In this document: positions 1,435-64,000 of the stretch, piece by piece | Layout of the letters: the number at the start of each line of letters is the position of its first letter | Numbering within the stretch: position 1 is the stretch's first letter | NCBI GenBank assembly: GCA_007449985.2 | Contig: VIIQ02000155.1 | Span: forward strand, 124,001-188,000 | Reading direction: 5' to 3' | DNA from: Desmodesmus armatus | Lineage: Eukaryota > Chlorophyta > Chlorophyceae > Sphaeropleales > Scenedesmaceae | DNA: 64,000 nucleotides | Notes under the pieces: generated by a model | The model's input: the letters and a program-made list of their open reading frames with translations, nothing else | Databases searched by the model: none | Told to the model about the DNA's origin: nothing | Made by a program: the position numbers and the translations under genes

Positions 1435-4327
1435 ATGCATCACAATGTCAACAGCACAGCAGCAGACCAGCCGCAGGACACAGCCACGTACAGCAGGAGA
1501 GTGCTGCAGTTCCCCTGCTCCGGTATCAAATGCCAGGCGTGGCTGTACCTGCCAAAGCACACACAGGGCAAGCCGCCAGTCGTCGTGGCTGCGCACGGGA
1601 TCGGTAAGCAGATAGCAGGGTTGAGCCACAACACCTTGGTTGCAAAGCTCAGGCTGCGATGGGGGTTGATTATGGGCAGGGTCAGGATGCCCCCACCCAA
1701 GATGCAGCGACCGCCTGGCAGTGTTTGGGCTGTCACAGCACTATTGTGTGGTGGCTGGTCAGCACACCTGCAGGTTGCTGTGCACGCACGGGATGTGAGG
1801 AGCTTTGCTGCTGTCACAGATGAGCCACCAAGCACGCACTTGATTCAGCGCATACAGCGCGCAGGTGCTTTATGCATCTCACTCACCAGCCACCGCGTCT
1901 CAGGACCCTATCCCAACCTGCCAACCCTCCACCTGTCTGTCTCCTTCTCAGGTTGTCAGAAGGACTTCGCGCTGGCTCAGTATGGAGAGAAGTTTGCACA
2001 GGCTGGCTTCGGATCCTTCATCTTTGACTATCGAACCTTTGGTGGTTCAGAGGGCCTGCCTCGCCACTGGGCCTCCCCAGCACGGCACCTAGAGGACTAC
2101 ATGTCTGCGGTGCAGTATGTGAGGGAGCAGCTTGGGGGTGAGGTGGACGTCAGCAAGCTCAACCTTTGGGGCAGCAGCTTCTCTGGAGGACACGTGCTGG
2201 CGCTGGCAGGAAGCAAGCTGCGTGATGAGGTCACGGCTGTGGTGGCACAGGTGAGAGAAAGTGTTATAGGGGGTGGGGGCGTCACAAGTGGATACAGGTT
2301 GTTACAAGTGGACAGCAGTAAAGAGACAGTTGGGACGTCTCATGGTGGTGGGCTGGGGGGTTCTCTTGTGGATGCTTAGCAAGCTCAGACAGGCACCGAA
2401 TTCTGTGCATGGAGCTGGCAGGCAGGAAGCTGCGTGATGAAGTCACAGCTGTGGTGGCACAGGTGAGAGAAAGTAGTAAGACGGTTTGGACTTCTCATGA
2501 CATGGTGGTGATGGGGAGGAGGGGGTGTGCTTGTGGATGCTTGGCACTCTCACCGATAGGCAATGTCCCCAGCATGTGGTGCTGGCAGGTGGCAAGCTGT
2601 GTGATGAGGTCACAGCTGTGGTGGCACAGGTGAGGTGTGGTCTGCTGTGACAACACAAACAAAAAAGAAAAAAGAAAAAATAAAGTAATAAAGACAGTTT
2701 GGACTTCTCAGAGGTGAGTCACGACATGGTGGTTGTGGGAAGGAGGGGGTGCGCTTGTGGATGCTTAGCACTCTCAGACAGGCAGTGTCCCCAGTACATG
2801 GTGCTGGCAGGCGGCGAGCTGCATGATGATGTCACAGCTGTGGTGGCACAGGTGAGGGGGAGCGGCAAGGACAGGGGTTTGTGCCTTCATGGCGAGGAAT
2901 ATGATGAGCAAGTTGAGGTTTGACAGTGTGCTTGCACTCATCATGCAGGTGCCCTGACTGATAGCCCTGCCTGCCCTTGGGGTGGTGCTGATGGCACTTC
3001 GTTTCAAGCACCGTCCGATGTTCATGTTCCCTATGTGTTGTCCTGCAGGTGCCGCTCACTGATGGCCCTGCTTTCCTGCTGGACAACTTCAAGAGGAGGC
3101 CCCTTGTGGTGGTGAGGGCCATCCTGGCTGGCATCCATGATGCCATGAGAAGGTCAGTAGCAGCTGCTCCGCTGGGTTGGGTTGTGTTAGGTCAGCTACG
3201 GGTTGACATGGTACGATGCATTACATCCCCTTCCCTTCACTTCACTTCACACCACATCACTTGACGACAAATGGTCAAGCTCTGCGGGAGCCAGGGGCTC
3301 ATGACTACCCCAGCCGTTACATCACACCAACAGCTGAATCAACAATGTGTGTGCCGCCATGTTGCTGCAGCTTGTTCGCCTATCCCCCAGCTTACATCCC
3401 ACTGACTGGCGAGCGTGGCGGGTTCAGCATGTTGGACATCACTCCTGCAGAGGCGGATGCATTCTATGGAACACACCCACAGGAGAGGCAGGTGTGTCTG
3501 CTGAGTTACGGAAGTGGCTCCTGGTAGCGGGTCATCTTGCAGCTTGTAGCACAGGCAGCCTGCACAGCAAGCCGCTGTGGCGCGCTGTGCTGGCTTGCCT
3601 GGACGGTCCACCAGCAGCATTGGGGTGTGCCCCGGGATGTAGTTCCCAATAGCTCCATGTTTCTAATAGTCTCCACACCTGGTACTCCACCTATCGCATT
3701 GTGGTGGCTGAGAACAGCACATGCCAAAGCCAGATGCAGTATGGGCTGCACAAATGCCTGCTGGCTGCCTTTACACACCCGTCAGGCACTGCTTGTGCAT
3801 GCAGTGCAGCCAATCGTCAATTCAGGCCGTGCCTTGTAACCCTGGCTGCAGTCACAAACAGCATCCTTGAGCTGAAGCCAGATGACCGACGGCCTGGCAG
3901 TCAGCGCTCTCTATTCGCTACGTGTTGCTCACATGCTGTATCCTGTATGCTTTGCTTGCAGGGAGGCTGGCGCAACATAGTAAGGGCCAAGGTGGCACTG
4001 GATGCCCTGTACAAGCCCGTGAGTTACGTCCACAACATCAAGGCGCCAGTGTTGTACCTTGCAGCCACTGAGGACTCGATCCTCCCCCTTGACACAGTCA
4101 TGTCAGCCCTGCGGCAGACCCCAGATGCCCAGTTGTTTACGATCGATTGCGGCCACTTTGATGTGTACAGCGGGGCACCATTCCAGCAGCTGGTGCAGCA
4201 CATGGTGGAGTTCCTGCAGGATAGGAATGACATGCAGCATGTGGCTACGCCTCCTGCATCGGCAGGTGGTGCTGACGGTGATGACGAGGAGCAGCAGACA
4301 GAGATGGAGAGTGATGCAGAGCTGTAG
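1435..4327 (+). CDS. alpha/beta-hydrolase fold protein
   Basis: Proposed exons are 1435-1603, 1952-2250, 3049-3152, 3371-3491 and 3962-4327. The phases agree and give 352 residues ending in TAG. The protein shows the alpha/beta-hydrolase order: VVVAAHGIG (oxyanion strand) near residue 50, a GGSEG turn near 87-91, the nucleophile elbow WGSSFSGG with Ser at about 132, an acid loop AATEDSI, and the catalytic His in IDCGHFDVY. The tail is acidic and low complexity. It resembles dienelactone-hydrolase or acyl-peptidase-like esterases; the substrate is unknown. No clear signal peptide is seen with the chosen ATG, though an upstream in-frame extension to 1348 is open. Intron 2 (2251-3048) is unusual because it holds repeated copies of the end of exon 2 and one copy of the start of exon 3. 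Confidence 0.75.
2196..2860 (+). repeat. tandem copies of exon 2 end plus donor site in hydrolase intron 2
   Basis: The last ~50 bases of exon 2 with its GTGAG donor (2200-2256) recur at about 2411-2467, 2580-2637 and 2801-2858. Each copy reads like LAGxKLRDEVTAVVAQ followed by GTGAG. The flanks also repeat: a GGACTTCTCA / TGGTG GGGAGG block and a TGCTTAGCACTCTCA block recur between copies. So the repeated unit spans exon edge plus intron start, about 170-220 bases. All three extra copies keep the GT donor dinucleotide. They have small substitutions, so the duplications are not brand new. Confidence 0.8.
2943..2985 (+). repeat. decayed copy of hydrolase exon 3 start with acceptor
   Basis: ATGCAG followed by GTGCCCTGACTGATAGCCCTGC matches the true exon 3 start at 3044-3075 (CTGCAG, GTGCCGCTCACTGATGGCCC). 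The copy retains the AG acceptor, but its frame meets an early stop. It is an acceptor-side duplicate in the same intron that holds the donor-side copies. Confidence 0.6.
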
Positions 4328-5224: not shown

Positions 5225-8141
5225 ATGAAGGGCAAGTCTGGAGCTCCAGCTGCAGATGCAGAGCAAGGTGGCGTGCGCACGCGCAGTGGGAAGACAGTTT
5301 CGAGGGCTGAAGTTTCAGCTGATGCCCCTGCTGGTGAACAGCAAACAGAGCCGCAGCAGGCAACAGTTGCAGCTGAGCAGCAGGCAGTTGAACCAGCACC
5401 AAGCCGTAAAAAGCTGCTGTTGCGAGAGTCCAAGGCCACGAAAAAGACCAAAATACAGCCTCCAGCAGCTGATGAGGCCGGTGCTGAAGCATCTGCAGTT
5501 GCAGATGCAGCAGGGCCCTCCAGTGCAGCGGTGCCAGCTGCAGAAGCCCTAACTGGTCATGTGGATGCAGCAAATGCAGCAGCAGCACCAGCAGCTGATG
5601 AACCTCTGGTTGGAGCCGATACCAAATCAGCAGCTGCTGATGTAGCCAAGGCAGCAGCAGCTCCCCAGTCATGTACAGGTGCCGCCGGTGTTGATGATGG
5701 TGCTGCTGCTGGGACAGGAGCAGGTGCAGCAGCAGATGTAGCTGCAGGCCAGAGTCCAACAGCAGCAGAAGCTGCAGCAGCAGGCAGCGGTCCGCCCCAC
5801 CCAGACACTAATGCAGGTAACACATCACTGGGTGTGGTGCAGTGACAGGGTCCAAGCGGTGCTTGCCTTGCGTGATTGAGTGCTTGCAACAGCACCTATA
5901 CATCAAGCTCCTGAGGTGCTTGATGTCCTGCAACAACCAGTCAACTGCGTGTTGCTACTTACTCTCAACCAAATCATTATCTGCGGGTGCGGAAAGGGGC
6001 CGGATTGGCATGCTCTCAATGTTGCGCTTGTGCACCTGCTTGTGTCACTGCTTTGTGCACCCACCTTCACGTTACCTGACCACAGCCAACCCCTGTCTTG
6101 TGCCCCATCCCCTGCCCATAGCACACGAGGCACCAGCACCTGCTGCATCCAGTCCAGCACAGCAGCAGCAGCAGCGCAGGAGGCCCCAGCACACCTCCAG
6201 CCCCGTGCTGGGCCCTATCGTGCTGGTACCCATGGTCCCGCAGCCCCCAGCAACAGTGCGCATGGGCGGTGCAGAGTTTCCTGCAGGACACCAGAGCCCA
6301 GCACGCGCGGCAGCAGGAGCCTCTCGCCGGCAAGCAGCTGCAAGCCCTGGCAGCGCCGTCAAAAGGACGCCGCCTAGGCCATCCGTTACATGGTGCCATC
6401 CTGCAGCTGCAGCCCTCCCTGAAAGGGACCACACGGCACCTTTCCCTACGTCTCCTACAGCTGCTGGTGCTGCTGGTGCTGGCAGGTCGCCGGCAAGGCC
6501 ACGTGGGACGGTCAGCTGGTGTCAGCCTGCCAAAGCAAGTCCCATGGCACACAGGTGGGCCTGTTGGTGAACAGTGCTCATGAAGATGACTAGAAAGAGT
6601 TCAGGAAGTGCGTCAGGTAGATCCTGCATGCTTTGAATGAGGTTACGCTGGTTGCGCAACAGTGACAGACATACATGCACAGCTGCAGCCGTTAGCACGT
6701 ACGGCAAATATCTACTGACCTAGGCGACCGTTGCAAATTTCAATCCACATCAGCATGATTAAGCCGTCGCCCTTTGCCGGTCCGTACATGACGTCTGCAC
6801 CCTGATCACACAGTGCCTTTGGTGTTTGCCACTGCTGCCGACTGCTTCTCAGGCCCGGCCCCAGTCCAGCAGCAGCAGCGGCGGCGGCGGCAGCAGCGCA
6901 AGGGGTGAGGGCACTGCTGGCATCGTCCCCAGCACGGGCAGCACCCCAGCACAAACAGCAGCAGCAGGACAAGCAGCAGCAGCAGGAGGGCCCAAGGGTG
7001 GATGCTGACATAGCTGCAATGACAGCCATGCTGGATGAGGCCCTGGCAGAAGCAGCTGGCTTAGCACCTGCAGCGGCAGGGGCTGCACGCGAGGCACCAG
7101 CTGCAGCCGCGGGTGCGACAGAACCACGCCCGGCGGCAGCAGCAGCAGCAGCAGCAGGTGGTGGTGCACAAGATGCTGAGAGGGCACAGCATGGTGTCGA
7201 TAGGCCAGCAGCTGCTGGCTTGGAGAGCGGTGCGCCTGCTGCTTCGGGCGCCAGCGGCGGGCGGTCGGGGCGCGCAGCCAGCACTGACTTTGTGAGGCAG
7301 CAGATGCAGCTGATGAGACGCAAGGCCAGCCAGCAGCAGCAGCAGCAGGGTTCTCAAGGGGCTGGCAGGAGTCCGCACAGGCCGGCGCTGCTGGCCCTGC
7401 CTGCGCCGCCACCTGCAGGTGCCGCTGCAGCCACGGGTGGCGGTGAGGCTGGTAATGACAGTGCAGCAGCCCTGGCAGCTGCTGCTGGCATGAGGGTGAG
7501 GAGCGCCCGCCCAGCTGCTCAGGCAGCGGCTGCCAACATTGCGCAGCTGCAGGGGCTGCCGCTGCCGGTGCCGGTACCGCCCGACAACCTGCGGCTGCAG
7601 CTGCTCGCTGCAGCGGCGTCGACAGCGGCTGCTGCCACGCGGGCACCAGCAGCAGCAGCAGGCCGAGGTGGTGCTGGTGCTGGTAGTGGTGGCCCTGGGG
7701 TGGCGAGTTTGGAGGAGAGGGTGAGCGCTGCGAGGCGGGATGCGATTGAGGCCAAGCGGGCGGCGCAGCGCCACAAGGAGGAGGCGGCTGCAGCGAAGGC
7801 GCAGCTGAAGGCAGAGCAGCACAAGCTCAAGGAGGCGCAGGACAGGCATTTGGCAGAGCAGGTGAGCTGGCTCACGTGATACGCACCTTGACCACTCACA
7901 GTAGGCTGATGCCCGCAACAATCCCTTCACAATCGTCGCTCAACTGAAGTCGTGCAACTTGTCATGTCACCAGCAGGTCGAATTCCACTCATCTCTGTGT
8001 TGCATGGCCCTGCATTGCATTGGCTACTGTACTGACCAAAGTGGGCTTGCACAGCACAGCACAGCATTCTCTGAGCATGCCTGTGCGACCTGTTGGATCG
8101 GCAACCTTCACTTTTAGACCTCTTCTCATTTCTCTCTTCTC

Positions 8142-8809: not shown

Positions 8810-11800
8810 GAGCAGCAGCAGCCGGCAGGAAGCGGCAGCGCCGGCAGCAGCACGAGGGGTACCTGTCAGATGAGGAGGGGGAGGGGGATGTCCAGCAGGA
8901 GGTGCAGCAGCTGCGGGCGGAGCTTCGTGCCTCAGCCCGTCAGCAGCGGCGGCTGGGTGAGCAGAACCAGGAGCTGCAAGAGCAGCTGGCCGACCTGCAG
9001 GAGCAGCGGGCTCAACTGCAGGACAACCTGCAGGAGGTGATGCACCAGCAGCATCAGCAGCAGGGTGCCGAGGGTGTGGCTGGGGAGGGTGCTGCTGCTG
9101 GAGAGGCTGGTGGTGCGCAGCACCAGAAGTCCCCGAAGGACTCCTCACGGCGCTCGAGCAAGCGCCACCAGCAGCAGCAGGGTGGGGAGGAGGGGCGTGG
9201 AGTGAGCCCGGATCGGCACAAGCGGCTGCAGGATCGGCTCAAGAAGAAGAAAGGGAAGCTGGCAGATGCACGACACCAGCTTGAGGATCTGCAGAAGCAG
9301 CTGCTCGGCCTGCAGCAGCAGTTGGCTGCAGCTGGTCCTGCTGCTGTTGCTGCCGCTGCTGCTGCTGGTGGTGGTGGTGGTGAGGTCACCGCCGGCAGCA
9401 GGAAGCGTGGTCGCAAGGCTGCTGATGCCGACGTGGCAACAGCAGCAGCACCAGCTGAGGGAGCTGCTTTGGTTGTCAATGCAGCAGAGCATAAGGCCCT
9501 GCAGCAGCAGGTGGAGCTGTTACAGCAGCTGTGAATGGCGCAAACACACTGGCAGAGGCTAACAAGGTTGACCACCAGCAGGAGGTGCAGCAGGAGGTGG
9601 CGGCACACCAGGCGACAAAGGCGCAACTTAGTCAGGTGGGTGGGCCCTCACAGGCTCCAGGCTTGTACATGTTGTCATTCTTGGGGGGGGGGACCTGCCT
9701 CAGATATTGCACCTCCTTGTACTGCACTGTACTGCTGTACTGCACTGTACTGTACTGTACTGCACCAGCTCATGTTGTGTCAAAAGGTGTGACATTCCGG
9801 CAGGAAGCTGAGGGCTGGCAGCCTGGCGGGCGGCCATCTTGCTAATATGGGCTGCATCAGCTATGGTGGAAAGTACGTACACATGCACTGTTGGTTTGCA
9901 GCCTGCTGGTCAATGCAGGGGTCAAAGCTGACCCCTGTACCTCACACCAGACATACTTGAGTCCTGGTGCAGACCTTGGGCAACCATTGGGCTGTATGGC
10001 TGCTGTGTGCCAAGAAACGTGGTTACTTACAAGTGTCAAGCTGACTGACCAATAACCCTATGTTCATCCTCTCCCACATGCAGGCGCAGGCTGCTGTGCA
10101 GCGTCTCCAGGCAGAAGCACAGACGCTGCGTGGCGAACTGGGTGCCGCCCGGGAGCTCCTGCAGGAGCTGCGTGAGCAGCTGCAGCAGGAGGAGGCGCAG
10201 CACCGTCAGCAGCAGCAGCAGCTGGAGGAGCGGCACCGGCAGGAGCTGAAGGAGGGGGCCGCACACCACCGCCCTGCCACACGCGCAGCAACGGGCGCTG
10301 CTGCTGCTGCGGGTGGGGCTGCGAGGGCCGGGGAGCCTGGGGAGGTTCAGGCGAGGGTGGCCTACCTGGAGAAGCTGGTGTTGAAACAAGGTGGGGCCGG
10401 GCGGGTGGACATTTGTGGTTTTAGTGTGTGGACGTAAGGGCCTTGTGGGTGTATATGGATGCGGTTATACAAACGGGCGAGGCGGTGGGGGGGGGGGGGG
10501 GGCCTGAAACCTTCAAACAAAACGGGCGAGGCTGGAGAAGCTGGTGCTGAAGCAAGGTGGGCCTGGGAATATGGAAGCAAGCGGATTTTGGGTTTGAACA
10601 TACGCGGTGCTAAAAGACGGCCGCCATGAATGGCATGTATGGCTGCTGACCTGGTTGCGCACGAGGGAGTGGGCAGGGAGCCGACTAGATGTGTATGAGG
10701 AGGCCAACTACACACAATTGTGCGGAGATTGGACGTGACGTCTTGGTACGTCGGGGTAGACAAGGGTGTGAAGCCACACCCCGTTCTTGCGTTTTGAACT
10801 CCCACCGCTGCCTCTTCCATGCTGACGCTCAACTGAAGAACCGACGAGTACAGCCTGTTTCTTGGGTTGGTTGGGGCATCTTACGCACCGCTTGCGTGCG
10901 CCATGAACCGCAATTGCTGCCTCTTCCCCGCAGGTGCCCAGCTGAGGGCCCACGAGTACAGCCTATGTATTGGGCTGGTTGGGGGCAACTTACCCCACCC
11001 CTTCTTGCGCCATGAACCCTCATTGCTGCCTCGCCCCCCGCAGGTGCCCAGCTGAAGGCCCACGAGTACAGCCTATTTGTTGGATTGGTTAGGGGCAACT
11101 TACCCCCACCCCTTCTTGCGACATGAACCCTCATTGCTGCCTCGCCCCCGTAGACGCCCATCGGAAGGCTCACAAGTACAGCCTGCTTGCTCGGCTGGTT
11201 GAGTGTAATGTACGCGCCCTGCTTGTGCCATAAACCCCCATTGCTGCCTCTTCCCCGCTGACTCCCAGCTGAAGGATGACGCACAGCCTGTTTGTTGCAT
11301 TGGTTGACGGCGACTTTGCCTCACCTTCTTGCGCCATCACCACCATCACCACCACCACCACTCCATCATTGCTGCCCCTCCCCGCGCAGACGCCCAGCTG
11401 AAGGCTCACGAGTACAGCCTGTTTCTTGCCTTGGATGGGAACAAGCCTGTTTGTTGGGTTGGATGGGGCCACTTTGCGTGCCCTTCTTGCGTCCACACCC
11501 CACCCATCCACCCTCCCCCCATTGCTGCCCCCCCCCCCCCCCCCCCGCAGACGCCCAGCTGAAGGCTCACGAGTACAGCCTCAGGGCGCGCGTCACCCGC
11601 ATCAGCCGCCTCAAGGAGGCCCTGGCAGAGGCTGAGGGCCGTGTGGCAGCAGCGCGCGGCGCCACCTTCCAGGCCCAGCTGGCGCAGCTGAGGAAGATGG
11701 AGTTTGACGATGCACGCAAAGCACTCACGAGGTGAGACGGCTTGGAACGTTATTGGTAGCAGGCAAAGGAGGGTGGGTGCTGCTGCACAGCCGCCGAGGG

Positions 11801-12569: not shown

Positions 12570-14328
12570 GCCGGCCTGACTTGCGCTGCCATGTTTTGCC
12601 TGTGGCAGCCCTTCGCTGGCCCCACGTGCACGAGGCTATGTGTTATGAATGTGTTGAAAAGTCCGCCATGCATGGTGCACCGACGCTGTGCTGTCATGGC
12701 GGCTGTTGGGTGTGAATGCAGGTGTTGACTTCACCCAGTATGAAACGGCAAGTGTGTGCTTCCATCAAGTTGCGCTGGGAGTCTGTTGCTGTGGCAGGCA
12801 TCTGTACGTGTGGCCAAGCATGATGAAGGTGTTGTGCTGTGTCCATATCTAGCAGCGGCCGGCCGGACAATCCTGTCGCGGCCTTGGTGCTGCCCTGTTG
12901 AGAGCCCTTGCTGCACTCTTAGTTGCGTTATATAGAGTGGATAATGCCTTGACTTGCATTCATGACACATCCCTGCCTGGCAGGCGGCTGACAGCAAAGT
13001 ACAATAGTGGGGGCTACATGAATTACTGCGTTCACAGTGGCATCATGATGCATCAGCGTGGCTGTGTAGTTCACCACTGCATGTTTGGCGCGGTGGTGGT
13101 TGCACACCATGGGGGAGAGGTGGCAGTTGCTGCACCGCAGCAGTGTGGCTTCAAGCTGAGTGTAGCTGAGTCGGGTTGTGCCATCAACTCGCGACTGACG
13201 GACATGTACTTGCCCTTGCTGCGTGTCACGCCAGCGGTGCAGCCGACCGGGTGGCACATCATCACATCACCTTTGACCGGCAAGGACACCTTGATATGTT
13301 GTTGTTCGTGTCAAGTATCTGGGCTATGTTGTTGCATCCTCTGCGCAAGTGTACCTGGGTGCTGACAGCGTGCACGCTGGGTGACGTGGTTGTGCCTGCT
13401 TTGCTTGAGTGTGCATCAGGCCGGCCTGCGCTGGCGTAGGGCCTCACTGTGCATCTGTTGTGTGGGGCTGACCTTGACTTGATGGGATGCACTCACTGGG
13501 TCAAGTGACTTGGCAAGTCTGCTTGTGGATGTGCACAACCTACCATCAGTAGTGCACCCTTGACCTCACAGAGTTGGCCTGCCATCGTTGTTGAGGCTGC
13601 TATCTTGCATGGCATGTGTTGTCACAAAGTTGCAACTGTCATTATCCCTGATGTGTAACCTTTTGTGTTGTACATTGACAGCATGCAAGCCAGAGCCCCT
13701 GCAACAATGATTCCTATCCACATCCAGGCATCAGTTTTGGTGCCGACGGTCGGTGGGAGCAGTATACAGGAGTGCACACAGGCTCCTTCAAGCGGTATCA
13801 GCAGCAGCTGCTGCTCCTGCAGGAACAGGCACACAAGGTGGAGCCAGCTGTATCTGCCCAGGTGCCACTTGAACGCAGGGTTTCTTGCCAGTTGCAGCTT
13901 GAGCAAAAAAAATTGCAGCTTGAGCAAGTGTCTTTGGGTGAAAACCCGGCATGCTAGGTTGTCGTTGTTAGCGCGGGAATACAGCTGCTGAGCGATGGGC
14001 GCTCGACAGGACGTGTATGCATGAGATATGTCAATTCGCTTGAAAATCAAACCTTTGCAACAGTCAAGTGTCGCTGTCAAGGGCCGGTATCTGCGTCTGA
14101 GGACGGTGCTTTTTGCAGTGAACGTCGGCACTGCTCGCACGACACAGGTCACCATCTTCTGCAGTATTATGCAGTGCAGTTTTTCAAATCTGCGCGATCC
14201 GGCCTGGCTTTTCTACAGTTTGTCCTGTAACCTTGGACAGTAGTCAGCTGGTGATGCCTGCCACAGCTGCAGCTGCATTGTACTCACTTCAATCAACAGC
14301 ATAACTCACTTCAAACAGTTAAATAACC
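12570..14328. other. intergenic region, 1.76 kb
   Basis: Between the coiled-coil stop and the first MYND gene. Several open frames exist, but none has recognisable domains or consistent splice signals. A (T/C)GCAGCTTGAGCAA pair at 13894-13927 is a short duplication. I see nothing else supportable. Confidence 0.45.
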
Positions 14329-17300
14329 ATGGCCAATGCTGCAGTGGTATCCTGGACAGTATGCGTCAGGCTGCTGCAGCAATTAGTTGATGACCCTCTC
14401 ACAGCCCCTGACAGCGCAAAGCAGGCAGTGGACAAGCTGAATGAGGGCTGCGACAATCCACTGCCAAATGCGGCCTGGAAGAGGCTGGTGCAAGATGTAC
14501 AGGTGCTGCCCTGAAATCTGCAAAAGCATGTGCTTGCTGTCTGCCATGGCATGCTGAGCGCGTGTACATGCTGAAAAGTTTGGATGAAACTGCATATGAC
14601 TCCTTGCACAATGCTGCCCTTGGCTACAGATTTTCAACACCCACACGTGCAACTCCTTCAAAGCACTGTCTGCAGGCTGCAGACAAATCCGTCTGTGATC
14701 TCCACCAGTAAGGGTGTGCCCTTATTTTGTCGCACTGCTGTGCATGTGCAGGTCACGCGGCAGCTGGCAGCACTGTGCATCCAGGCCTACCAGCAAAAGG
14801 CAACAGCGCAAACAAAGCACATGATTGTCTCTGTTCTGGGGTTGTGGCTGGTCAAAAACCAAGTGGCCGGTGCAGTGTCCCCAACATCCCGCCTTGTGGC
14901 CAATGCGCGACAGCAGCTGCAGGGATCAGGGCTGCTGTAGCACATGGCAGCAATTTTTGCAGATGCAGCAGATCTTTTAACAGAGGCGGCAGCAGCTGCT
15001 GCTGAGGAACCAGCATTGAGCAGCAGTGGCAGCAGCGGCAGAACAGGTGCCCAGAACTCAGGAAAACAGTTGTGGAGGGTCATTGCCTTGATTTACAAGC
15101 TGCTGAATGTTTACATGAAGGCCTGCTATGTGGTGTCAGCAGCAACGAACGGAAGCTTCAGCTTGGAAGCAGCTCTGCCTGCAGCACCCGCAGCTGTGCG
15201 CCTGATCCTCACCACCTTCCAAACCTGCAGCAGGCTGCAGCAGCTGGCAGGCAAGGAGGGCAGTTCTGCAGGGATCGCGTTGCTGGCTGGAGCTGCTGGT
15301 TTTTGGGAGCACTGCGCCAAAACCCTGGAATTGAGCCAATTGGTGCTGCTTGATCTGTCAGAGCATGTCACAGCGCAACCTGTGCCTGAGGCTAGAGAGC
15401 TGCTGCTGTGCCCTGAGCTGGTGCCATGCCTTGCCATCATCGTGCTAGCGACAGTGCTGGGGGTCGATACAAGGGCAGAAGCAGGTGCAGGCAGCGGCAG
15501 TGGGGCTGGGAGTGCAGCAGCTCCAGCAGGCAGCAGCAGCAGCAGCAACAGCGAAAGGCAGGCCTCAACCAACCAGGGATCCTTGCAGCAGCTGACAGCA
15601 CCTGCTGATGGCAGCAGTACTAGCAGCGGCAGCAGCATTAGGAGGCTGACCAATGGCATCAGCCTGGACAGCCTGACGCCCCTGTCCCGCGGCTTGTTTG
15701 GCCTGCTGGGGGTGGAAGAGGGCGTGCTGCTGCAGGTGGCAAGGGAAGTCAGCAAGGACGCCGATCTCAATCCACCAGCCATGTATGACCGCCGAGTCGA
15801 TGCCTCCTGCGCTGTGCTAGATCGGCAGGTGAGCAGCAGTCAGGTGCTCTGTATTTCACATTCTGCAGGGAGCGGCTGAACAATTTGCAGCAAACTTAGA
15901 GTGTTAGTTAGGCCGCACTGCCCTACAGCATACACCATTGTGGCTGCACTAGACTGATTGCTCAGCAGTAAATCTAGCATGTACATGCAAGAGCCCAAGA
16001 TGCCGCTTGTTGTCCAGCACAGCGATTGACCATTGCATCGGACAGACATCGATGCACATGTCATGTGCTGTATGTCAATTGTCATGTCGAGTGGCAGAAG
16101 CTGGCACGTGGGCACACTTCATCGCACCTTACTACATTGGACTTCAAGGTACACTGCTAACTCATTCGCTGTGCAGGTTGCACTCTTGTTCACGCCTTGT
16201 GGAGCCTTCAATGCTCAGCTGCTGCTCCAGCTGGAGACAAACATGCTGCTGGGCTTGGCAGTGCATCAGCTGACAGCCAGCATACCTGCCAGCTACCCAG
16301 CCTCACATGAGCTACGGGACATTGCTTGCAAGCTTGGATGCTCTTCCTTGGTGAAACTGTCTGCAAGACTGGCAGTGCACAAGCTGCCCCTGCCAGCACC
16401 CTACACAGGGCCCCAGCTGGCACTGCAGGTCACACCCTCCCCACTTGAACTGCCTGCAGCTCCCCAGTCTGAGCAGCAGCAGCAGCTTCAGTACTGCACC
16501 GTGACACGAACCGCCCAGCTGCTGACAGAGCAGTTGCCGCTGCTGACCAGCTACTGCCTGGCCAAGGTGCAGCAGCAGCAAGAGCGCAGGCATCACTCAA
16601 GCAGCAGCTGCAAGAGATTCTAGCTGAGCACCCTGAATACAGCTTTAAAGATGAGGAGGAGGCGGGAGAGCATGGGCCGGAAGTCGTGCACCTTTCCGGC
16701 AAATCCCTCGCCACCGTGCATGCAGCGACGCACTGTGTTCCCCCAGTGACCGTGAAAGAGTCAATGGCGCACATGTGCATGCTGCTGAGCCTCGCAGTGG
16801 TGCCGGACCCCAATTTCGCAGCAGCAGAGTCGCGGGCAGTCGCAAGCAAATGCAGCACAGCGAAGAGCGAAGATGGGCATGTCCGTTGCGGATGCGCCCT
16901 GCATGCTCCGAGCGCTGTCGTGCAGGTAGCAAGAGGGGTTATTCGCCTGTGCGAGGTGCTGCTGCGTGATGCCGCAGATGCGTGTGAGATTGCGGTTGGG
17001 CTGTGTGATTATGAGGATTTGGTGGCAGCAGCTGCCGCAGACAGTCAGCTTCCAGTATCTTCAGGTGTCGGCGCTGCAGAGGCCAACTTGATATGGATAG
17101 TTGGGATCATCGCTACTCTGGTGAGCCACAAGGCAGCTGCTGACTTGGACCACAACCTCTGCCCACTGGTGCTAGCAGCCCTGTCAGCAGGCCCAGGGTC
17201 TGACCTGCAGCGGCAGCTGTTCAGCCTGCTGTGCAGCATGGTCACGCTCGGCAGTGCACCTGCGAGGTTCCTGCAAGACACTGCAGATGACTCAGTTGCA

Positions 17301-20411: not shown

Positions 20412-20477
<66 letters not shown>

Positions 20478-26729: not shown

Positions 26730-26793
<64 letters not shown>

Positions 26794-43600: not shown

Positions 43601-43888
43601 CTGGCCATGGCTGGCAGAGCTGGCAGCCTTGAGGGGATGCTAAGTGTGGACAGCTCAAGCAGAAACAAACCTCTGCAATGGATTGCTGCTACAGAGTACA
43701 CCATATGCATGTGACTCGGCAGTGTGCGACCTGTCCTACGCTGCATGGCAGTGTGTGTGGCTGCGGGTTGTGTTCACCTTGAAGTCGCAGCAGCAGCTGT
43801 AGGCAGCATCTGCATCAAGGTAGTTGTTGTATGACATCTCCTTGCCATGGTGCTGCACTGCTGTGGCAATGCCACCCTGTCAGTGGAC

Positions 43889-43923
<35 letters not shown>

Positions 43924-45114: not shown

Positions 45115-45175
<61 letters not shown>

Positions 45176-48100: not shown

Positions 48101-49703
48101 CACCAACTCATAGCCAGCTGCTGCTAGACCCTGCACACAGCACAGACACATGCAGATGTCGGTGCAACAGTTCAGAGTGGGTCATAGAGCTTGCCGTGAT
48201 CACGCTGTCATGACAGTGTCAGTAGACATCAACTCATAGCCAGCTGCTGCAAGGCCTGCATACACAAAGCAGACAGGGTTGGGGTCATGGAATAGTCCAT
48301 ATTGGCTTGACGCTGGCTGTACTCGCAACAGAGATGAAGCATACACAGCAAGCCGTGCTGGTTTGAATTAGGCCGCATAAATGCACTGTGAATCTTACAG
48401 AGTCTAGGTACTGGTGCATATGCCCACCTAACCCACCAACTACTGGGGCTTCGTCCCCTCTCCTTTCCCTTTCGTCCCCCCCCCCCCCCCCCGCCCCGGG
48501 GCGTGGAGCCGCCTGGGATACGAGCAACGCTCCACTGAAGGGAGTCTGAGCGCTTTACACTCAAACTCCCTTCAGTGAAGCGTTGCTCGTATCCCCACGA
48601 GGTTCCATGTCCCCCCCCCCCCCCACACACACACAGTTAGTGTCTTACACACCCCTGGACCCAAAGACCCCCCCCCCCCACACACACTGCTTGCATGTGT
48701 CCAAGTACTCCCTCTGGAGTCTTAGCCAGGTCCTCAAGGCCAGGTGGCTCCACGCCCCCCCCCCCCCCACACACACACCCACCCACACCCCGGGACCCCA
48801 AAGACCCCCCCCTCCCTCACCTTAGCCAGGTCCTCAAGACCAGCCTTGTCTGACACAGACACCAGCGCACGCCCCTTGGACCCAGCAGCTGCAGCAGCAA
48901 CAACAACACGAGACACACACAATATTCCACTCGCCTTTCAGTGCAGGACATGCATCATGTTGCCTGGTCATGTGAACCCTGGCACAAGCAGCTGCAGCAG
49001 CAGCAACACAGTACACACAGCCAACCATACTCCACATTCATTCAATTCTTAGGCTAAGAAAGCATGGTGCTGCCCAGTCATCCAAACCCTGTCAAGGTGC
49101 ACGGTTGTGAAAGTTGGAAGGGCCGACGGAGCTGCAGCTGCATTATGATGCCTCTGTGCTGCTGCTCTGACTATTCTGGGCATTACCAGCTTTTTTGGAG
49201 GTACAGACTATCAGCCAGGTTGTCTTGGTGAAACAAGCAGGTGGCGGCACTGTCTGCATGCGTCACTGCAGATGCTGCGCATCCCAACTAAACACTGGGG
49301 TATTAGGCGGACGCAGACGTCCTGTCCGTCTTCCCTTTGCCACCGATGCTCATTACAGCCTCACATATGTGTCCCCACTTGCTGAAGAGACTGCCAGCTG
49401 ACCCCCCCCCCCCCCACACACACACACACACCAACACCAACATCATACACACACGTGCGCACACCCCCAAAGCCCCACAGTTCCAGGACAATCCCAGGCC
49501 CCGCAACTGCGCTGTGGGCCTTTGTTCGCACCTGCTGACGCCATGACAGACATACGGCGTGAGGGCTGGCGCCTAGCTGCTGCTGTCACTCCCTCGGACT
49601 GCAGGCCCCTGCACAAGTGTGGCAGCAACTGACTGGTCACGTCTACTGCTGCATGGGGGCATGCCCTGAGGCCCAAGACTCTTACTTTATGCTGATAGCA
49701 CAC
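40635..49703 (-). CDS. purH: bifunctional AICAR formyltransferase / IMP cyclohydrolase (two small lesions in exon 10)
   Basis: Thirteen exons, in coding order: 49703-49532, 48888-48821, 47997-47877, 47359-47250, 46516-46250, 45803-45718, 45272-45206, 43876-43778, 43518-43340, 42432-42257, 41600-41419, 41041-40924 and 40754-40635. The product catalyses the last two steps of IMP synthesis. The first exon codes an Arg/Ser-rich leader, likely a plastid transit peptide. The cyclohydrolase half shows [43 protein letters not shown] and [16 protein letters not shown]. The transformylase half shows [24 protein letters not shown], the catalytic [32 protein letters not shown] and AHPGGSIRD. Length is about 588 residues, normal for the family. 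Exon 10 is two bases short: in GCCCCGGCTACACCCAGAG a C seems missing from each of two C runs, breaking the usual APGYTPEG motif. Introns are full of splice-edge repeats. Confidence 0.88.
41644..42027. repeat. eight perfect 48-base tandem repeats in purH intron 10
   Basis: The unit begins CAGTTATGACGTGAGAACAG and ends CTTCCTGGTCAA. It is repeated eight times with no visible difference. It starts 43 bases upstream (coding sense) of exon 11 and is followed by a partial copy of the exon 11 start (42026-42072). The unit is a multiple of three and open on the plus strand, giving a 16-residue periodic frame, but nothing suggests it is translated. Confidence 0.97.
42024..42075 (-). repeat. copy of purH exon 11 start
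   Basis: AACAGTGAAGGTGATGTCCT and GTCAGCACCCTGGGG match the true exon 11 acceptor end (41561-41604). The copy lies on the far side of the 48-base array, so the array sits between the real exon edge and its duplicate. Confidence 0.8.
42553..42657 (-). repeat. copy of purH exon 10 start with acceptor
   Basis: This repeats the exon 10 acceptor and first ~55 coding bases (42384-42455), including CAGCCGGGGCGACAACAATC and GTGGGAGACCTGACAGCAAG. It carries an internal insertion (GTATACACACACGGGTCT). The acceptor AG is intact, but the frame soon meets a stop. Confidence 0.8.
43888..43972. repeat. CAG and CACAG simple repeats in purH intron 7
   Basis: (CAG)n of about eleven units followed by GGCAAGATAAGTCACAACACGG and five CACAG units, just inside the acceptor side of intron 7. 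Confidence 0.85.
44004..44762. mobile_element. TTAA-flanked non-autonomous DNA transposon in purH intron 7
   Basis: The ends are inverted: GGGGGAAGGATACAATT at 44004-44020 and AATTGTATCCTTCCCCC at 44746-44762. TTAA lies directly outside each end (44000-44003 and 44763-44766). A 17-base terminal inverted repeat with a TTAA target duplication is the signature of piggyBac-like elements. The 759-base interior has no recognisable transposase; the longest frame (44019-44327, minus) codes 102 residues of unknown type. It therefore looks like a non-autonomous derivative that inserted into the intron without touching exons 7 and 8. Confidence 0.8.
45117..45173. repeat. (CAG)19 in purH intron 7
   Basis: Nineteen perfect CAG units, 33 bases inside the intron from the exon 7 donor. 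On the coding strand it reads (CTG)19. A length-variable site is expected. Confidence 0.95.
45378..45396. repeat. short interstitial telomere-like motif
   Basis: AAACCCTAAACCCTAG is two units of the plant/algal telomere repeat (CCCTAAA), in purH intron 6. A second pair (TAGGGTTTAGGGTT) lies at 57273-57287. Two units can occur by chance or at repaired breaks. Confidence 0.6.
46027..46090 (-). repeat. copy of purH exon 5 end plus donor
   Basis: CACCTGTGCATCGTAGCTGG, GTGTGTTGGT and CACGCCATCTTCTTC repeat the true exon 5 end (46248-46311). The GT donor and the reading QHTASYDAQ are preserved. C runs (coding G runs) surround both. Confidence 0.85.
46600..46772 (-). repeat. two copies of purH exon 5 start
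   Basis: The exon 5 acceptor edge (46480-46519, coding [14 protein letters not shown]) is repeated at about 46600-46639 and 46733-46772. The first copy keeps the acceptor AG and is nearly exact; the second has lost similarity at its end. G runs (coding-strand C runs) separate the copies. Confidence 0.82.
46925..47250 (-). repeat. ~110-base units carrying the purH exon 4 end
   Basis: CACCAGGTCGATGGGCTCTG and relatives at 47126-47150 and 47017-47036 copy the real exon 4 donor edge at 47246-47266. Between them CATCAACGCTGCTGTGCTGT, GTACTGTGCTGCAATTGTGC and CCTACCCCAA also repeat. So the unit is exon edge plus about 90 bases of intron. Confidence 0.82.
48093..48263 (-). repeat. two copies of purH exon 3 start with acceptor
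   Basis: GTGGACACCAACTCATAGCC plus AGCTGCTGCTAGACCCTG at 48096-48134, and a more diverged copy at 48219-48259, repeat the true exon 3 edge at 47962-48000. Acceptor AG dinucleotides are preserved in both. Confidence 0.85.
48501..48613. repeat. ~110-base inverted repeat (hairpin) in purH intron 2
   Basis: The inner arms at 48515-48546 and 48565-48595 match over about 31 bases with one mismatch (GGGATACGAGCAACGCT against AGCGTTGCTCGTATCCC). The outer arms (48501-48514 and 48596-48613) match imperfectly. The loop is about 18 bases. C runs lie on both sides. No target duplication was recognised, so it may be a small fold-back element or a palindromic duplication. Confidence 0.8.
48719..48742 (-). 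repeat. copy of purH exon 2 end
   Basis: CTTAGCCAGGTCCTCAAGG repeats the exon 2 donor edge at 48821-48839 (LEDLAK). The donor dinucleotide is lost in the copy. The surrounding CCCC-CACACACAC and CTGGACCCAAAGACC blocks also repeat (48654-48680 and 48760-48812). Confidence 0.75.
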
Positions 49704-54180: not shown

Positions 54181-54840
54181 CGCTTTGGCAGCAAGTAGTC
54201 AGACCGTCACTGGGACCACAGGCTTGAAATGCAGGGACAGATGGGAGGGGTCTACACACAGCTGGCTAGGGCTAACAAGTACCTACCAGATCGTACAGGC
54301 AGCTGCAGTGCTTGCCTTGAGTGTCTGCACAGCAGCTGCATGTGAAAAATGGGGTCTGTCAGCTGAAAATGGCCAGGAGGGGACCAGCAGCTGCTGCCTC
54401 AACAACATGCTGTAACAGCAGCTGCATGGCTTGTGCACCCACCCACGCACCAGCAGGGAGCTGACTCTCAAGCAGCTTTTTGAACGCCAACAGCAGCAGC
54501 GAGGCCAGGCTGTCTCAGTCTCCAACAAACTGTCTCACAACAAGGCAACAGCAGCAGCTCACAACCCAGCGCTGATCAGGCAACACACAGGCACATATGC
54601 CCCTGGGATTCAAATCTTGATTGCTCTATCCAGCTGTAAGCTGCTCTGGAGCTTTGAACGCAAACCTCACTTTCTCATTCAACGGCCATAATGTCGTCCG
54701 AACTGCCATGGGGCAAAAGGGCCCAGTTGCGCCCTAGCAGGGCCCCATAGGGATTCTTTGTTACGGAAAAGCATTTCTCTGCACTTGTCGACCCAAGACA
54801 GCAGCGGTGACCTTCCACCTGGCTTACTTCTGCCGAACTG
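54181..54840 (+). repeat. left copy of 660-base direct repeat
   Basis: From CGCTTTGGCAGCAAGTAG to ACTTCTGCCGAACTG. I saw no differences from the copy at 58362-59021 by eye. It does not begin TG or end CA, and no primer-binding site or polypurine tract adjoins it, so it is not an ordinary LTR. Confidence 0.92.
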
Positions 54841-54963
54841 AAGGTCTCACATGTGTGACCACCCCCCTGATTAAACCCCATTTGAACCCTAGCCCCAGCC
54901 CATTGGGCACTGCTGCTTCAGTGCTTTCAAATGCACCCTGTTGCTGTTTTCAACCACGCGCAG

Positions 54964-58361: not shown

Positions 58362-59021
58362 CGCTTTGGCAGCAAGTAGTCAGACCGTCACTGGGACCAC
58401 AGGCTTGAAATGCAGGGACAGATGGGAGGGGTCTACACACAGCTGGCTAGGGCTAACAAGTACCTACCAGATCGTACAGGCAGCTGCAGTGCTTGCCTTG
58501 AGTGTCTGCACAGCAGCTGCATGTGAAAAATGGGGTCTGTCAGCTGAAAATGGCCAGGAGGGGACCAGCAGCTGCTGCCTCAACAACATGCTGTAACAGC
58601 AGCTGCATGGCTTGTGCACCCACCCACGCACCAGCAGGGAGCTGACTCTCAAGCAGCTTTTTGAACGCCAACAGCAGCAGCGAGGCCAGGCTGTCTCAGT
58701 CTCCAACAAACTGTCTCACAACAAGGCAACAGCAGCAGCTCACAACCCAGCGCTGATCAGGCAACACACAGGCACATATGCCCCTGGGATTCAAATCTTG
58801 ATTGCTCTATCCAGCTGTAAGCTGCTCTGGAGCTTTGAACGCAAACCTCACTTTCTCATTCAACGGCCATAATGTCGTCCGAACTGCCATGGGGCAAAAG
58901 GGCCCAGTTGCGCCCTAGCAGGGCCCCATAGGGATTCTTTGTTACGGAAAAGCATTTCTCTGCACTTGTCGACCCAAGACAGCAGCGGTGACCTTCCACC
59001 TGGCTTACTTCTGCCGAACTG
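58362..59021 (+). repeat. right copy of 660-base direct repeat
   Basis: Same sequence as 54181-54840 at an offset of exactly 4,181 bases. It is preceded by transposase exon 1 and followed at once by host sequence leading to the EGF-like gene. Confidence 0.92.
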
Positions 59022-59076
59022 CAAGGAGCACGGTCACCTAGTCCAGTCTGATTCAGCCTTTGTAGGGATCTGGAGA

Positions 59077-59966: not shown

Positions 59967-62829
59967 CAGTAGCCCTGCAGCTGACAGGGATATGCAACGC
60001 AGATCCAGGAGCAAAGGCTTGTGACAAACGACAGCGGAACCAGCGAAGCAGCAGAAGCTGAACAGCCATTCACCGCAAGATCAGCAGCAGCAGCAGCAGG
60101 ATGAGAGGGGAGGGGGACCTGTAGGCTTGTCACAGCGTGTCATGTTAGGCAGGTTTGCTGTATGCACAAAGCCACAATGCTTTTGTCATGGCGAAAGAGG
60201 GTACCTGTCGTTCTTAAGTGTGTGCTCTGGGTTGCTTTCACACATGGTGTGAGGCCGGACTCCCTCCCCCCTCCCGGGGACTTTTTTATGCTTGCTGTAG
60301 TGCAATCTGTGCACTGCTGTTACCCCCTCCCTCGTTACCATCCCTTACCTTCTGCAACCCCCCCTGCACCCCTCCCTTTGCATTCCTTGCTTTTCTTGCA
60401 ACGTGTGTCTGCCCGCTCTTGCAACCTTCTTCCCTGCAGACTCTGTCAACTCTGTGACAAGCTTTGACAACCGCCCCCCAGGCAGCAGCAGCAGCAGCAG
60501 CGGGCCCCCAAGCAGCACCACCAGCGGCAGCAGCAGCAGCAGCGGCGGCCAAGCCCCCACCGGCAGCAGCACACTTCCGGGGCCCCTCCCAAGCAGCAGC
60601 AGCAGCAGCCGCAGCAGCAGCCGCAGCAGCAGCACCAGCAGCAGCGGCAGCAGCGGTCTCTCGTGTAACAGCAGGAGCATTGTATCACGAGGGAATTTGT
60701 CAGTAGCTGACAGCTGGTCTGAGGCTGCTCCCCTTACGTTGGACTTCATTCCACTGCCGCGGGGGCAGTGTGTGGGGTGGACGATAGGGGCGGATGCGCT
60801 GGCGGAGACGGACTGTGGGCTCAGATCGGCAGAGAAGTGAGTCAGGGAGGGATACCGTTGTGAGGGGTTGGTGTGCTGTGGTGTGGAAACATGCATCTGG
60901 GCCAATTGTGAGCTGTGTCAATGTGTCACTGTGTGTGTGGCCCTCGCACACGGGGAGGGGGGAGGGGGGCAGTGCGTGGGGTAGACAATTGGGGCGGATG
61001 CTCTAGCAGAGATGGACTGTGGGCTCAAGTCAGCTGAAAAGTGCGTCAGGGGTTGTGGAGGGGGGTCGGGGAGGGGGGGCAGTGTGTGGGGTGGACGACA
61101 GGGGTGGATGCACTGGCAGAGACTGACTGTGGGCTCAAGTCAGCTGAAAAGTGCGTCAGGGGGTTGGGGAGGGGGGTTGGGGAGGGGGGTCGGGGAGGGG
61201 GGGCAGTGTGTGGGGTGGACGACAGGGGTGGATGCACTGGCAGAGACTGACTGTGGGCTCAAGTCGCCAGAGAAGTGAGTAGGGGGTGGGTGGTCGGGGG
61301 GTTTCCGTTGTGGTGGTGAGCCTGAGACGCATGCAGCTGTTGTACTATGAGACGTGGATGCAGCTGTTATAACTAGTACCGTGACAAATATCAGAGGGGG
61401 GGGGGCTATCGGGGCGGATGCTCTGGCAGAGGCGGACTGTGGGTTCATAGTCGGCGGAGAAGTGCTTGCCACTGAGGGATCATGCTGTGCTGACCATCAT
61501 GACATGTAGTTGTCGAGCGCCCGGGGGGGGGGGGGGGGGGGTGAGGAGCGTAGGGCTGCAGCAGAGACTGACTGTGGGACCTGCACTTCCTGTATATGCT
61601 GCCTTCGCTCCTTCGGTTTGACTCATGTTTGACTTTCTGCTTGCTGTTCTCCCCCTACCGCCCCTGTTGCCCCTGCAATTACATCCTAGTCGAGTTCTGG
61701 CAGCTGGGCGACAATATCATCACTATGCAACCTCAGGCTTATTATTGGTACATAACGCTGAACGCCCTGCACCAACTATACACACTGCTCCATGCTGTTC
61801 CATTTGGCTCTACTCCTGACTCCGCTGCTCTCCCCCCCCCCCCCCCACCCGCCCCCACCGCTGTCGCCGCTGCAGTTACATCCTTGTTGAATTCTGGCAG
61901 CTGGGCGACAACAGCACTATCAGCGGTGGCAGCATCGGCGGCCCGGGTTCAGGCCGGACCGGCCTTCCAAAAGTCCCTTACAACGGCCCCGTGATCGACA
62001 TCAAGGTTTTAGCGGCCCGTGGCACTAAACCCTCCCTGACCTTCGCCTCCGATGGCCAGGATTTGAACAAGGTTATACCCCCGATCAGGGACCCGACAAC
62101 GGGGCTTACCCCCGTGGGATCTTTTCAGGATGATGCGGGGGTGGTTTACAACCGCCCGGTGTTGAGGATTATGTTTCCGACGGATTCGCCGGTGACGGAT
62201 GTGGGGGACCCAGCTGACCCCAAATCATGGTGAGTGGTGTGTGTCTGAATTGTGGGGGGTTGGAAGAAGGGAGGCACAAGGATTGAGGTTGTATCGTGGC
62301 AGGATGATGCGCGGGTGGTGTACAACAAACTGGTTTCTGGACGGTCGATTTCGAAATCATCAGCAGTGCCTGTTCCGCCCCGCTTCCCCCTTCTCACATG
62401 CCCCCTTACCCCCCCCCCCCCTCTTTCACAGGTACATCACCATTGCCAACATGCCAGATCAGCAGGCCCTGCCCGCCTATGCCCTGCGCGCCTCCTGCAT
62501 CAGCATCAACCCCCATCACTCACCCCCCCCCTCCCCCCGTTGCCCCCCCCCCTTTCAACAGGTACATCACCATTGCCAACATGCCAGATCAGCAGGCCCT
62601 GCCTGTCTATGCCCTGCGTGCCTCATGCATCAGCATCAACCCCCATCACTCACCCCCCCCTCCCCCCGTTGCCCCCCCCCCCTTTCAACAGTACATCACC
62701 ATCGCCAACATGCCAGATCAGCAGGCCCTCCCTGCCTATGCCCTGCGCGCCTCCTGCATCAGCATCAACCCACCAGCCAAGGGCCCACTAGCAGCACCAG
62801 CAGCCAACAGGACCAGTAAGACAGCAGGC

Positions 62830-62864
<35 letters not shown>

Positions 62865-64000
62865 GCGGGAGCCTGGCATGCCGTGCCCTGTGCCTAGCCC
62901 TGGGGGCAAGCAGTGCAACGGACACGGCACATGCAGGACAGACTCTACGGTGAGGGTGTGTGTGTTTGGGGGGGGGGGGCGTGCGTGCGTGCGTGTGTTG
63001 ACACTTGTTCTCTCCCTACTACGCCGTACAAGACGTACTGCTGTTTCTATGCCTGCGATTTGTGTTCTCATGTGGCCAGTTGCAGCTGCTGCCACGGCCC
63101 CAGACTCATCTCTGCCAACCAGCCCTCTCACAGGCTTGCCTTCCTCACACCTCCACTGTTACACTTCTCTCTGTTGCAGGACCTTTCCCCCGAGTACTCC
63201 CGCTACTGCGCCTGCGATGCTGGTTGGGGCTCTTGGGGTTGCCAGCTGCAGCTGCTGTCCCTGCCCCCACCTTCCCGCCTCAAACTTCCCCTGTCACACC
63301 ACAGGACCTATCCCCCTGAGTACTCCCGCTACTGTGCCTGCGGCGCCGGGTGGGGATCCTGGGGCTGTCAGCTGCAGCTGCTGTCCCTCCTCCTCAACAC
63401 CCCCCATCTTTCACACTCCTGAACCCGTCTCACACTTTCTTCCGTCATTTTCTTGCACCACAGGACCTATCACCCGAGCACTCCCGCTATTGTGCCTGTG
63501 ACGCCGGTTGGGGCTCCTGGGGTTGCCAGCTTCAGCTGCTCTCCCTCCCCCTCAATGCCCCCGAGCCAGTCACAGCCACCATCCCCCCCGGCAAATGGGG
63601 CTACTGGGAGGTCAACCTGCCAGCCTGGCAGGGGGCCCCGGGCCAGGGTGGGCCGGGTGACGTGGCGGCGGCTGCGCGTGGCAGCAGCGGCGGTGGCGGT
63701 GGCAGCAATGAGCAGCTGCTGCTGATGGCGGAGAGGGTGCCGGGGCCGGGCATGGGGGGAAACCCACTGCTGTTCCTCAAGCCCTTTGACAATAAGGTGC
63801 GTGGATTTGGGGGGGGGGGGTGTCGCTTGGCTGTGTGTGCGACTGGAAGTGGGCTAGCCTGAGAGGTTGGGGGCCAGGGTGGGCCGGGTGACGTGGCGGC
63901 GGCTGCTCGTGGCAGCAGTGGCGGCGGTGGTGGCAGCAATGAGCAGCTGCTGCTGATGGCGGAGAGGGTGCCGGGGCCGGGCATGGGGGGTAACCCACTG
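59077..64000 (+). CDS. secreted or membrane EGF-like protein (partial at right edge)
   Basis: Exons 59077-59161, 60440-60836, 61876-62229, 62562-62949 and 63464-63796 join in phase; the gene continues past the window. Exon 1 codes a signal peptide (MFGSGLRSVRVGVSLLLALG). Exon 2 is Ser/Gly-rich, then PLPRGQCVGWTIGADAL. Exon 3 begins NYILVEFWQLGDN and is beta-rich. Exon 4 carries two in-frame copies of YITIANMPDQQALPxYALRA and a poly-Ala tract, then an EGF-like start (CPVPSPGGKQCNGHGTC). Exon 5 completes it (YCACDAGWGSWGCQLQLL). The CxCxxGWxxWGC pattern resembles the EGF module of TMEM8/PGAP6-type proteins, but the membrane part is not in view. The gene starts 56 bases after a transposon end, so its promoter may lie in or be cut by that element. 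Almost every exon edge is duplicated in the adjoining intron. Confidence 0.65.
59794..59813 (+). repeat. poly-C run in intron 1 of the EGF-like gene
   Basis: About 20 C in a row, far from both splice sites (intron 59162-60439). A CAG repeat follows at 59935-59963. The rest of this 1.28 kb intron holds nothing I can identify. Confidence 0.85.
60764..61470 (+). repeat. five copies of EGF-like gene exon 2 end plus donor
   Basis: The exon 2 end (60768-60845, coding GQCVGWTIGADALAETDCGL, then donor GTGAGT) recurs at about 60966-61041, 61077-61161, 61200-61285 and 61408-61465. The donor is intact in the true copy and in the 61277 copy (AGAAGTGAGT). It is altered to AAGTGCGT in two copies and GAAGTGCTT in the last. 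G-rich spacers (GGAGGGGGG) separate copies. Confidence 0.85.
61668..61722 (+). repeat. copy of EGF-like gene exon 3 start
   Basis: TTACATCCTAGTCGAGTTCT, then GGCAGCTGGGCGACAA, repeats the true exon 3 start at 61876-61912. In the copy the acceptor CTGCAG has become CTGCAA, so it cannot be used. The CCCCTACCGCCCCTGTTG upstream also resembles the true pyrimidine tract. Confidence 0.8.
62405..62775 (+). repeat. three copies of EGF-like gene exon 4 start
   Basis: Units of about 128 bases start at 62432, 62562 and 62692, each coding YITIANMPDQQAL, then ALRASCISINP, and followed by CATCACTC plus long C runs. The acceptor is CACAG|G in copy 1, AACAG|G in copy 2 and AACAG|T in copy 3 (one G lost). 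Only the copy 2 acceptor gives an open frame into the rest of the exon. Confidence 0.88.
62830..62863 (+). repeat. GCT repeat coding poly-Ala
   Basis: About ten GCT codons between TSKTAGT and VREPGMPC in exon 4 of the EGF-like gene. Confidence 0.9.
63170..63560 (+). repeat. three copies of EGF-like gene exon 5 start
   Basis: CAG followed by GACCTTTCCCCCGAGTACTC (63180), GACCTATCCCCCTGAGTACT (63305) and GACCTATCACCCGAGCACTC (63464). Each continues into CCGCTACTG(C/T)GCCTG and the GWGSWGCQLQLL coding text. Acceptor AG is intact in all three. Copy 1 runs to a stop at about 63420 and copy 2 stops within five codons, so only copy 3 keeps the gene open. Confidence 0.88.
63640..64000 (+). repeat. 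duplication of EGF-like gene exon 5 end
   Basis: GGCCAGGGTGGGCCGGGTGA and about 130 further bases at 63640-63775 recur almost exactly at 63872-64000, which is cut by the window edge. The donor at 63797 is followed by a 12-base G run (63809-63820). This is one more donor-side duplication, with a period of about 232 bases. Confidence 0.88.

Follow-up and report, generated by a model that had tools for sequence, protein, structure and literature searches.

Recurrent duplication of exon edges into adjoining introns in genes of the green alga Desmodesmus armatus

Local duplication has reportedly been implicated in intron gain by Hellsten 2011 and by Gao and Lynch 2009, as cited in a review of the subject. 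Intron gain is reviewed in PMC3443670, and in the model of gain by tandem duplication (the AGGT model), a local duplication doubles splice signals and an exonic segment turns into a new intron. The duplications described here for Desmodesmus armatus likewise double splice signals, but it is an existing junction that is doubled and an existing intron that grows; the copies sit in introns between modelled exons rather than forming new introns at intron-less sites. Introners (PMC9860276) resemble them in being a recurring genomic source of intron sequence, but there one element is copied to many genes, whereas in the alga every copy derives from the exon next to it (a match partly built into our search), no single element was found spread among genes, and a piece of the gene purH matched its own locus only. 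Ordinary growth of minisatellites and tandem arrays is similar in its units of 70-300 nt, in the presence of several copies and in their outward decay; the algal unit differs in that it straddles an exon edge. In potato RdRp, a tandem duplication across an intron-exon boundary took in the 3' portion of an intron, the splice site and the beginning of the following exon (PMC4974935). As presented there, it is one case, which gave rise to an additional intron and to an insertion of coding sequence, whereas in the alga many genes are affected, the copy stays in an existing intron and the protein is seemingly unchanged. Junction-crossing duplications have already been published as single cases; neither a general description, of which the original prediction knew none, nor recurrent junction-spanning duplication in an alga, nor recurrence on the present scale was found in the literature searched, which leaves most subscription papers outside.

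The window considered here is the whole 64-kb stretch of DNA analysed, part of one contig of the D. armatus genome (assembly of 115.8 Mb in 831 contigs). Repeat families, TRF and self-comparison were used to survey it, along with a masked local search compared with gene models and a relaxed search covering positions 28000-37500. The original prediction had named five genes (hydrolase, coiled-coil, RluA, purH and EGF-like) in which exon edges are copied, together with the splice site, inside the adjoining intron, and such copies were found in all five. Markov controls for chance repeats were nearly empty: order-3 Markov versions gave 1 repeat pair for the window against 76 real pairs, and those of 18 random 10-kb loci held 2 pairs in total. 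Outside purH, the window contains the following features.

2198-2250, forward strand: hydrolase exon end (placed by the gene finder), source of a donor-edge ladder; repeat family D16
2410-2863, forward strand: three hydrolase exon-end copies with GT, at 2410-2474, 2577-2641 and 2799-2863 (92, 85 and 83% identity)
10367-10567, forward strand: coiled-coil exon end (10367-10401) and its copy (10533-10567), 89% over 35 nt, d=166
10777-11581, forward strand: coiled-coil gene, array of a 110-nt unit that joins the intron end and its AG to the exon start, preceding the exon at about 11559; repeat family D14
33436-33552, forward strand: RluA exon end (33436-33484) and its copy (33504-33552), 92% over 49 nt, d=68
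60735-61489, forward strand: EGF-like gene, repeats of about 124 nt from the exon end near 60814; repeat families D11 and D17
61651-61920, forward strand: EGF-like exon start (exon 61876) and a copy upstream, d=197
62413-62771, forward strand: EGF-like gene, 130-nt x 2.8 array whose unit joins the intron end and its AG to the exon start; repeat family D12
63177-64000, forward strand: further EGF-like exon-edge repeats, at 63177-63562 and at 63619-63769 / 63853-64000, the last cut by the window end; repeat family D19

Several exon edges are thus copied in the EGF-like gene, as seen in the window repeat searches, and in the coiled-coil gene the exon start lies within the 110-nt array; the RluA copy came from the relaxed search and was unlisted in the earlier window self-comparison. 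The MYND and LRR genes, which had been described as free of such copies, had none listed in the masked local search against gene models. Pfam agrees with the names hydrolase (Abhydrolase_1, E 2.3e-11) and MYND (2.9e-8), while the EGF-like match scored below the cut-off (19.3 bits against 24.3 needed). Coiled-coil, RluA and LRR are names given in the original prediction; a motif scan of the candidate RluA gene found nothing, and the 224-aa LRR piece had no Pfam match. Three related MYND-type genes lie in tandem at 14326-28467, without edge copies. Elsewhere in the window, 665-nt direct repeats at 54181-54844 and 58362-59026, 99.85% identical and 4181 nt apart, flank a predicted protein, of which the 300 aa searched gave no Pfam match; the repeat pair with the enclosed gene has the look of a mobile element of recent origin that ends in direct repeats.

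The purH gene has as its closest homologue the database protein P0001 (88% identity over 75% of the query), a plain PurH protein without inserted edge copies; among green algae, relatives were found in Chromochloris (72%), Monoraphidium (69%) and Raphidocelis (67%). Its features are as follows.

40638-49553, reverse strand: purH, 13 exons modelled against P0001 (spliced aligner, GT-AG introns only)
48874-49094, reverse strand: exon 2 start, weak low-complexity repeat (66.7%)
48074-48256, reverse strand: two exon 3 start copies, 48130-48074 and 48256-48220 (exon starts at 47997)
46977-47146, reverse strand: two exon 4 end copies, unit 115-117 nt (exon ends at 47250)
46584-46784, reverse strand: two exon 5 start copies (exon starts at 46516)
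46030-46101, reverse strand: one exon 5 end copy, 83% over 72 nt (exon ends at 46250)
42551-42648, reverse strand: exon 10 start copy (exon starts at 42432)
42025-42067, reverse strand: exon 11 start copy, 88% over 43 nt (exon starts at 41600)
41644-42031, reverse strand: perfect 48-bp x 8.1 array adjoining the exon 11 copy, the sole intron-only event in purH

Copies had been proposed at exons 2, 3, 4, 5 (both edges), 10 and 11; all are clear except that of exon 2, which is weak. Exon 10 (42257-42432) carries two frameshifts in the model, which look like homopolymer errors of the assembly, and similar homopolymer-like frameshifts were seen in IleRS (L027).

Recurrence was measured in ten homology-modelled genes with 110 introns and 220 edges: purH and nine from outside the window, namely ValRS1, ValRS2, IleRS, a cytosolic IleRS, CCT1, CCT4, CCT5 and the HSP70 paralogues L031 and L032, which we take to be BiP-like. 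Models were built with a purpose-written spliced aligner with introns restricted to GT-AG, using human segments for the cytosolic IleRS and protein homologues for the other genes; the first exons of ValRS1 and the choice of exons in IleRS, ValRS2 and the cytosolic IleRS were curated by hand. Adjoining introns were searched on the plus strand (E <=1e-4, low-complexity matches dropped), and a match beginning at most 12 nt from the exon edge was defined as an edge copy; the purH exon 2 start (low complexity) and exon 4 end (14 nt of exon only) are left out of the count. The tRNA synthetases and CCTs were picked on Pfam matches alone, blind to repeats, and the HSP70 pair because the match list already showed overlapping exon matches. 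Counts that include purH, the discovery gene, or L031 and L032 are therefore biased, and a blind set of seven genes omits them.

Across the ten genes, 38 of the 220 edges (17%) bear at least one copy, with 60 edge copies in all, 33 of an exon start, every one in the upstream intron, and 27 of an exon end, every one in the downstream intron. All 60 are thus in direct orientation and on the side expected from tandem order beside the source, in a search that covered the plus strand of adjoining introns. It had been claimed that the intron-facing edge is always the one copied; this is so for 60 of 65 copies, the remaining five matching exon interiors and none lying on the wrong side. No exon-exon duplication event was found in the ten genes. 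In the seven blind genes, 25 copies occur at 18 of 152 edges. Genes vary widely: edges with copies number 6/24 in purH, 0/24 in ValRS1, 5/20 in IleRS, 2/28 in ValRS2, 7/28 in the cytosolic IleRS, 10/22 in L031, 4/22 in L032, 1/14 in CCT5, 3/22 in CCT4 and 0/16 in CCT1, and one HSP70 gene alone holds 23 copies. Introns with copies have a median length of 656 nt (n=31) and those without 340 nt (n=79), a difference that exists in part by definition. Local repeats are common genome-wide, 46 events being found in 18 random loci. One such locus holds LeuC, outside the ten genes, where exons called by the gene finder suggest roughly four events at edges and two arrays confined to introns; a 60-nt and a ~110-nt array at L005:8462-8941 and 6568-7338 apparently lie in LeuC introns, one of them being an open coding-like repeat. 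Dispersed short repeats also occur, in that several short stretches of the introns within L031:2800-5400 recur on many other contigs, with 67 matches listed.

Each copy contains about 20-110 nt of exon plus the splice site. The whole unit is clearly repeated without spacer in CCT5 (d=124; 98% in the exon part and 99% in the intron part), ValRS2 (d=142, 97%) and purH exon 4 (d=117), and in an HSP70 array of four copies the intron parts still align at ~68%. A recognisable intron flank, taken as at least 0.70 identity over the 40 intron bases beside the site (for unrelated flanks the mean is 0.58-0.59 and the 95% point 0.68-0.70), is kept in 21 of the 60 copies. Among the 22 copies with at least 92% exon identity it is kept in 8 and lost in 14, a loss that plain tandem decay does not predict. 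Copies form ladders of up to five, where in 16 of 22 pairs of neighbours the outer copy resembles the exon less, and they diverge by up to ~25%, the 60 together holding 5 stops and 10 indels. In line with the original prediction, splice dinucleotides are retained in some copies and lost in others: of those reaching the edge, AG is kept in 19/24 and GT in 22/24, about what overall divergence would lead one to expect.

We consider it likely that these copies arise by recurrent local tandem duplication across splice junctions, with the copy silent and the intron growing. Duplications, mostly of 70-300 nt, would have one end in an exon and the other in the adjoining intron, thereby doubling the exon edge, the splice site and some intron; a junction-spanning event of this kind would place an exon-start copy upstream and an exon-end copy downstream, as observed. 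A tandem origin may be extended to those copies whose intron flank is lost. Under exon definition, the splice sites that are paired are those bounding the shortest exon. A copy would then fall silent inside the longer intron while the gene went on using the original site, which would explain both why such duplications are tolerated and why the copies may be left unspliced; sometimes amplified into a ladder, they would subsequently decay. Duplications internal to exons would be purged. Wholly intronic ones probably occur too and would before long escape recognition, since divergence and indels build up in both of their halves, and edge events would still be visible because their exon-derived half can be read against a conserved source.

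Counted as events, edge and intron-only duplications stand at 41:5 in the ten genes, where uniform placement over tolerated positions expects 18.4 of 46 at edges; this ratio was never reached in 400,000 draws. Of 15 events in an initial set of four genes, 14 were at edges, against 7.8 expected (P=5e-4); the seven-gene stage gave 36:4 (expected 15.5 of 40), and the seven blind genes gave 21:4 (expected 10.8, P=2.6e-5). A simulation of neutral uniform duplication with equal decay placed 46.5% of detected events at edges but was set aside as a null, since it lets intron halves decay at the pace of the copy and the observed loss of flanks is faster. Because intron halves fade faster than simulated, a flank-corrected null was used, a rough device of our own in which the detection of intron-only events is multiplied by the fraction of flanks seen to be retained (0.35). 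With this correction the expectation in the blind genes becomes 17.0 (P=0.06, or 0.03 if two neighbouring pairs are taken as one event, as may be the case for two of three intron-only pairs in the cytosolic IleRS), and that in all ten genes 29.9 of 46 (P=1.6e-4, in a set that includes purH and two copy-selected genes). The claim that edges are copied more often than exon interiors or intron middles therefore stands against uniform placement and is borderline in the blind genes after flank correction. The excess over the uniform null, and in all ten genes over the corrected one, runs counter to the explanation favoured here. The impression that it is always the edge appears to be largely a matter of geometry, purging and detectability, with a possible residual preference for exon edges.

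Such a preference would be expected if exon edges were a true duplication hot spot, owing to transcription, G/C runs or repair, or if copies were refreshed by exon-to-copy gene conversion while the flank decays, an explanation that we find rather unlikely. In its favour, besides the 41:5 ratio, are near-identical copies with lost flanks (CCT4 exon 9, 98.5%; L031 exon 6, 98%; L032 exons 5 and 6, 97 and 96%), for which conversion would fit. The exon 5 end is moreover copied in both L031 and L032 with breakpoints 1-2 nt apart, each copy being like its own exon, and copies of at least 92% identity differ from their exons at 47 synonymous (S) and only 12 nonsynonymous (N) sites. Against it, the flank-corrected excess in the blind genes reaches only P=0.06, ValRS1 and CCT1 hold no copies, and in the 18 random loci a splice-edge score showed no enrichment (24/46 events at >=12 against 45% of random placements), although this score also failed to separate known positives. 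That edges are hot spots whose copies evolve in concert through gene conversion, as a renewable reserve able to rewrite the exon or give backup splice sites, seems less probable still.

The synonymous bias of the most similar copies had also raised the question of selection, which was mostly dropped once the HSP70 pair was polarised. Pooled copy-exon differences are 167 S and 151 N, and copies below 88% identity show 83 S and 110 N. With the other paralogue as outgroup (27 copies), changes on the exon lineage are 36 S and 0 N, a count that homoplasy at two-fold sites may inflate, and those on the copy lineage 35 S and 66 N (unresolved 8 S, 1 N); a separate set of 14 alignments, with 31, 17 and 51 differences by codon position, points in the same direction. 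Copies therefore decay close to neutrally, though the copy-lineage N fraction of 0.65 falls somewhat short of the 0.77 expected for single changes (p=0.005; the expectation ignores transition bias), which runs counter to purely neutral decay. That intronic edges are under selection because they act as alternative splice sites or as parts of exons is improbable: the retention of GT and AG and the synonymous bias of the most similar copies would suit it, but that retention is about what divergence predicts, copy-lineage changes are mostly nonsynonymous and accompanied by stops and indels, and P0001 lacks inserted copies. Least probable of all is an assembly artefact, in which two haplotypes or noisy reads were joined so that an exon end appears twice. 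Homopolymer frameshifts are indeed present (purH exon 10, IleRS), but the extent of divergence, the ladders to five, the nonsynonymous changes and stops, and the same pattern on many contigs argue otherwise, the copies do not read as intact alleles, and a 1.9-kb purH piece has no second locus in the genome, its matches being confined to its own locus. A haplotype mosaic or inter-allelic origin was dropped on that absence and the HSP70 polarisation. Taken at the sequence level, the copies appear to be duplicates in near-neutral decay, and not used exons or haplotype mixtures.

At sites that differ between the HSP70 exons, copies agree with their own exon 107 times and with the paralogue 36 times; most copies therefore postdate the split of L031 and L032, whose divergence is dS 0.58. 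L031 also has an intron absent from L032 (L031:8004-8455 against L032:5192-5386; exons of 88+107 nt in the former and of 195 nt in the latter), so that an intron was recently gained or lost.

The suggestion that splice-junction duplication lengthens introns or creates alternative sites is supported in its first part by recurrence in unrelated genes on many contigs, by the ladders and by the longer introns; near-neutral decay in the HSP70 pair speaks against the use of alternative sites. A recognisable copy lies at about one in six modelled edges (38/220), or about one in eight in the blind genes (18/152). Gene predictors can be misled, our gene finder having called many copies as exons, and ladders of differently aged copies would allow rates of duplication, decay and possible conversion to be measured beside splice sites. 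Exon-edge duplication looks like a common way in which introns grow in this alga; duplication across junctions may be a major route of intron lengthening there, and may keep cryptic splice sites and parts of exons constantly available.
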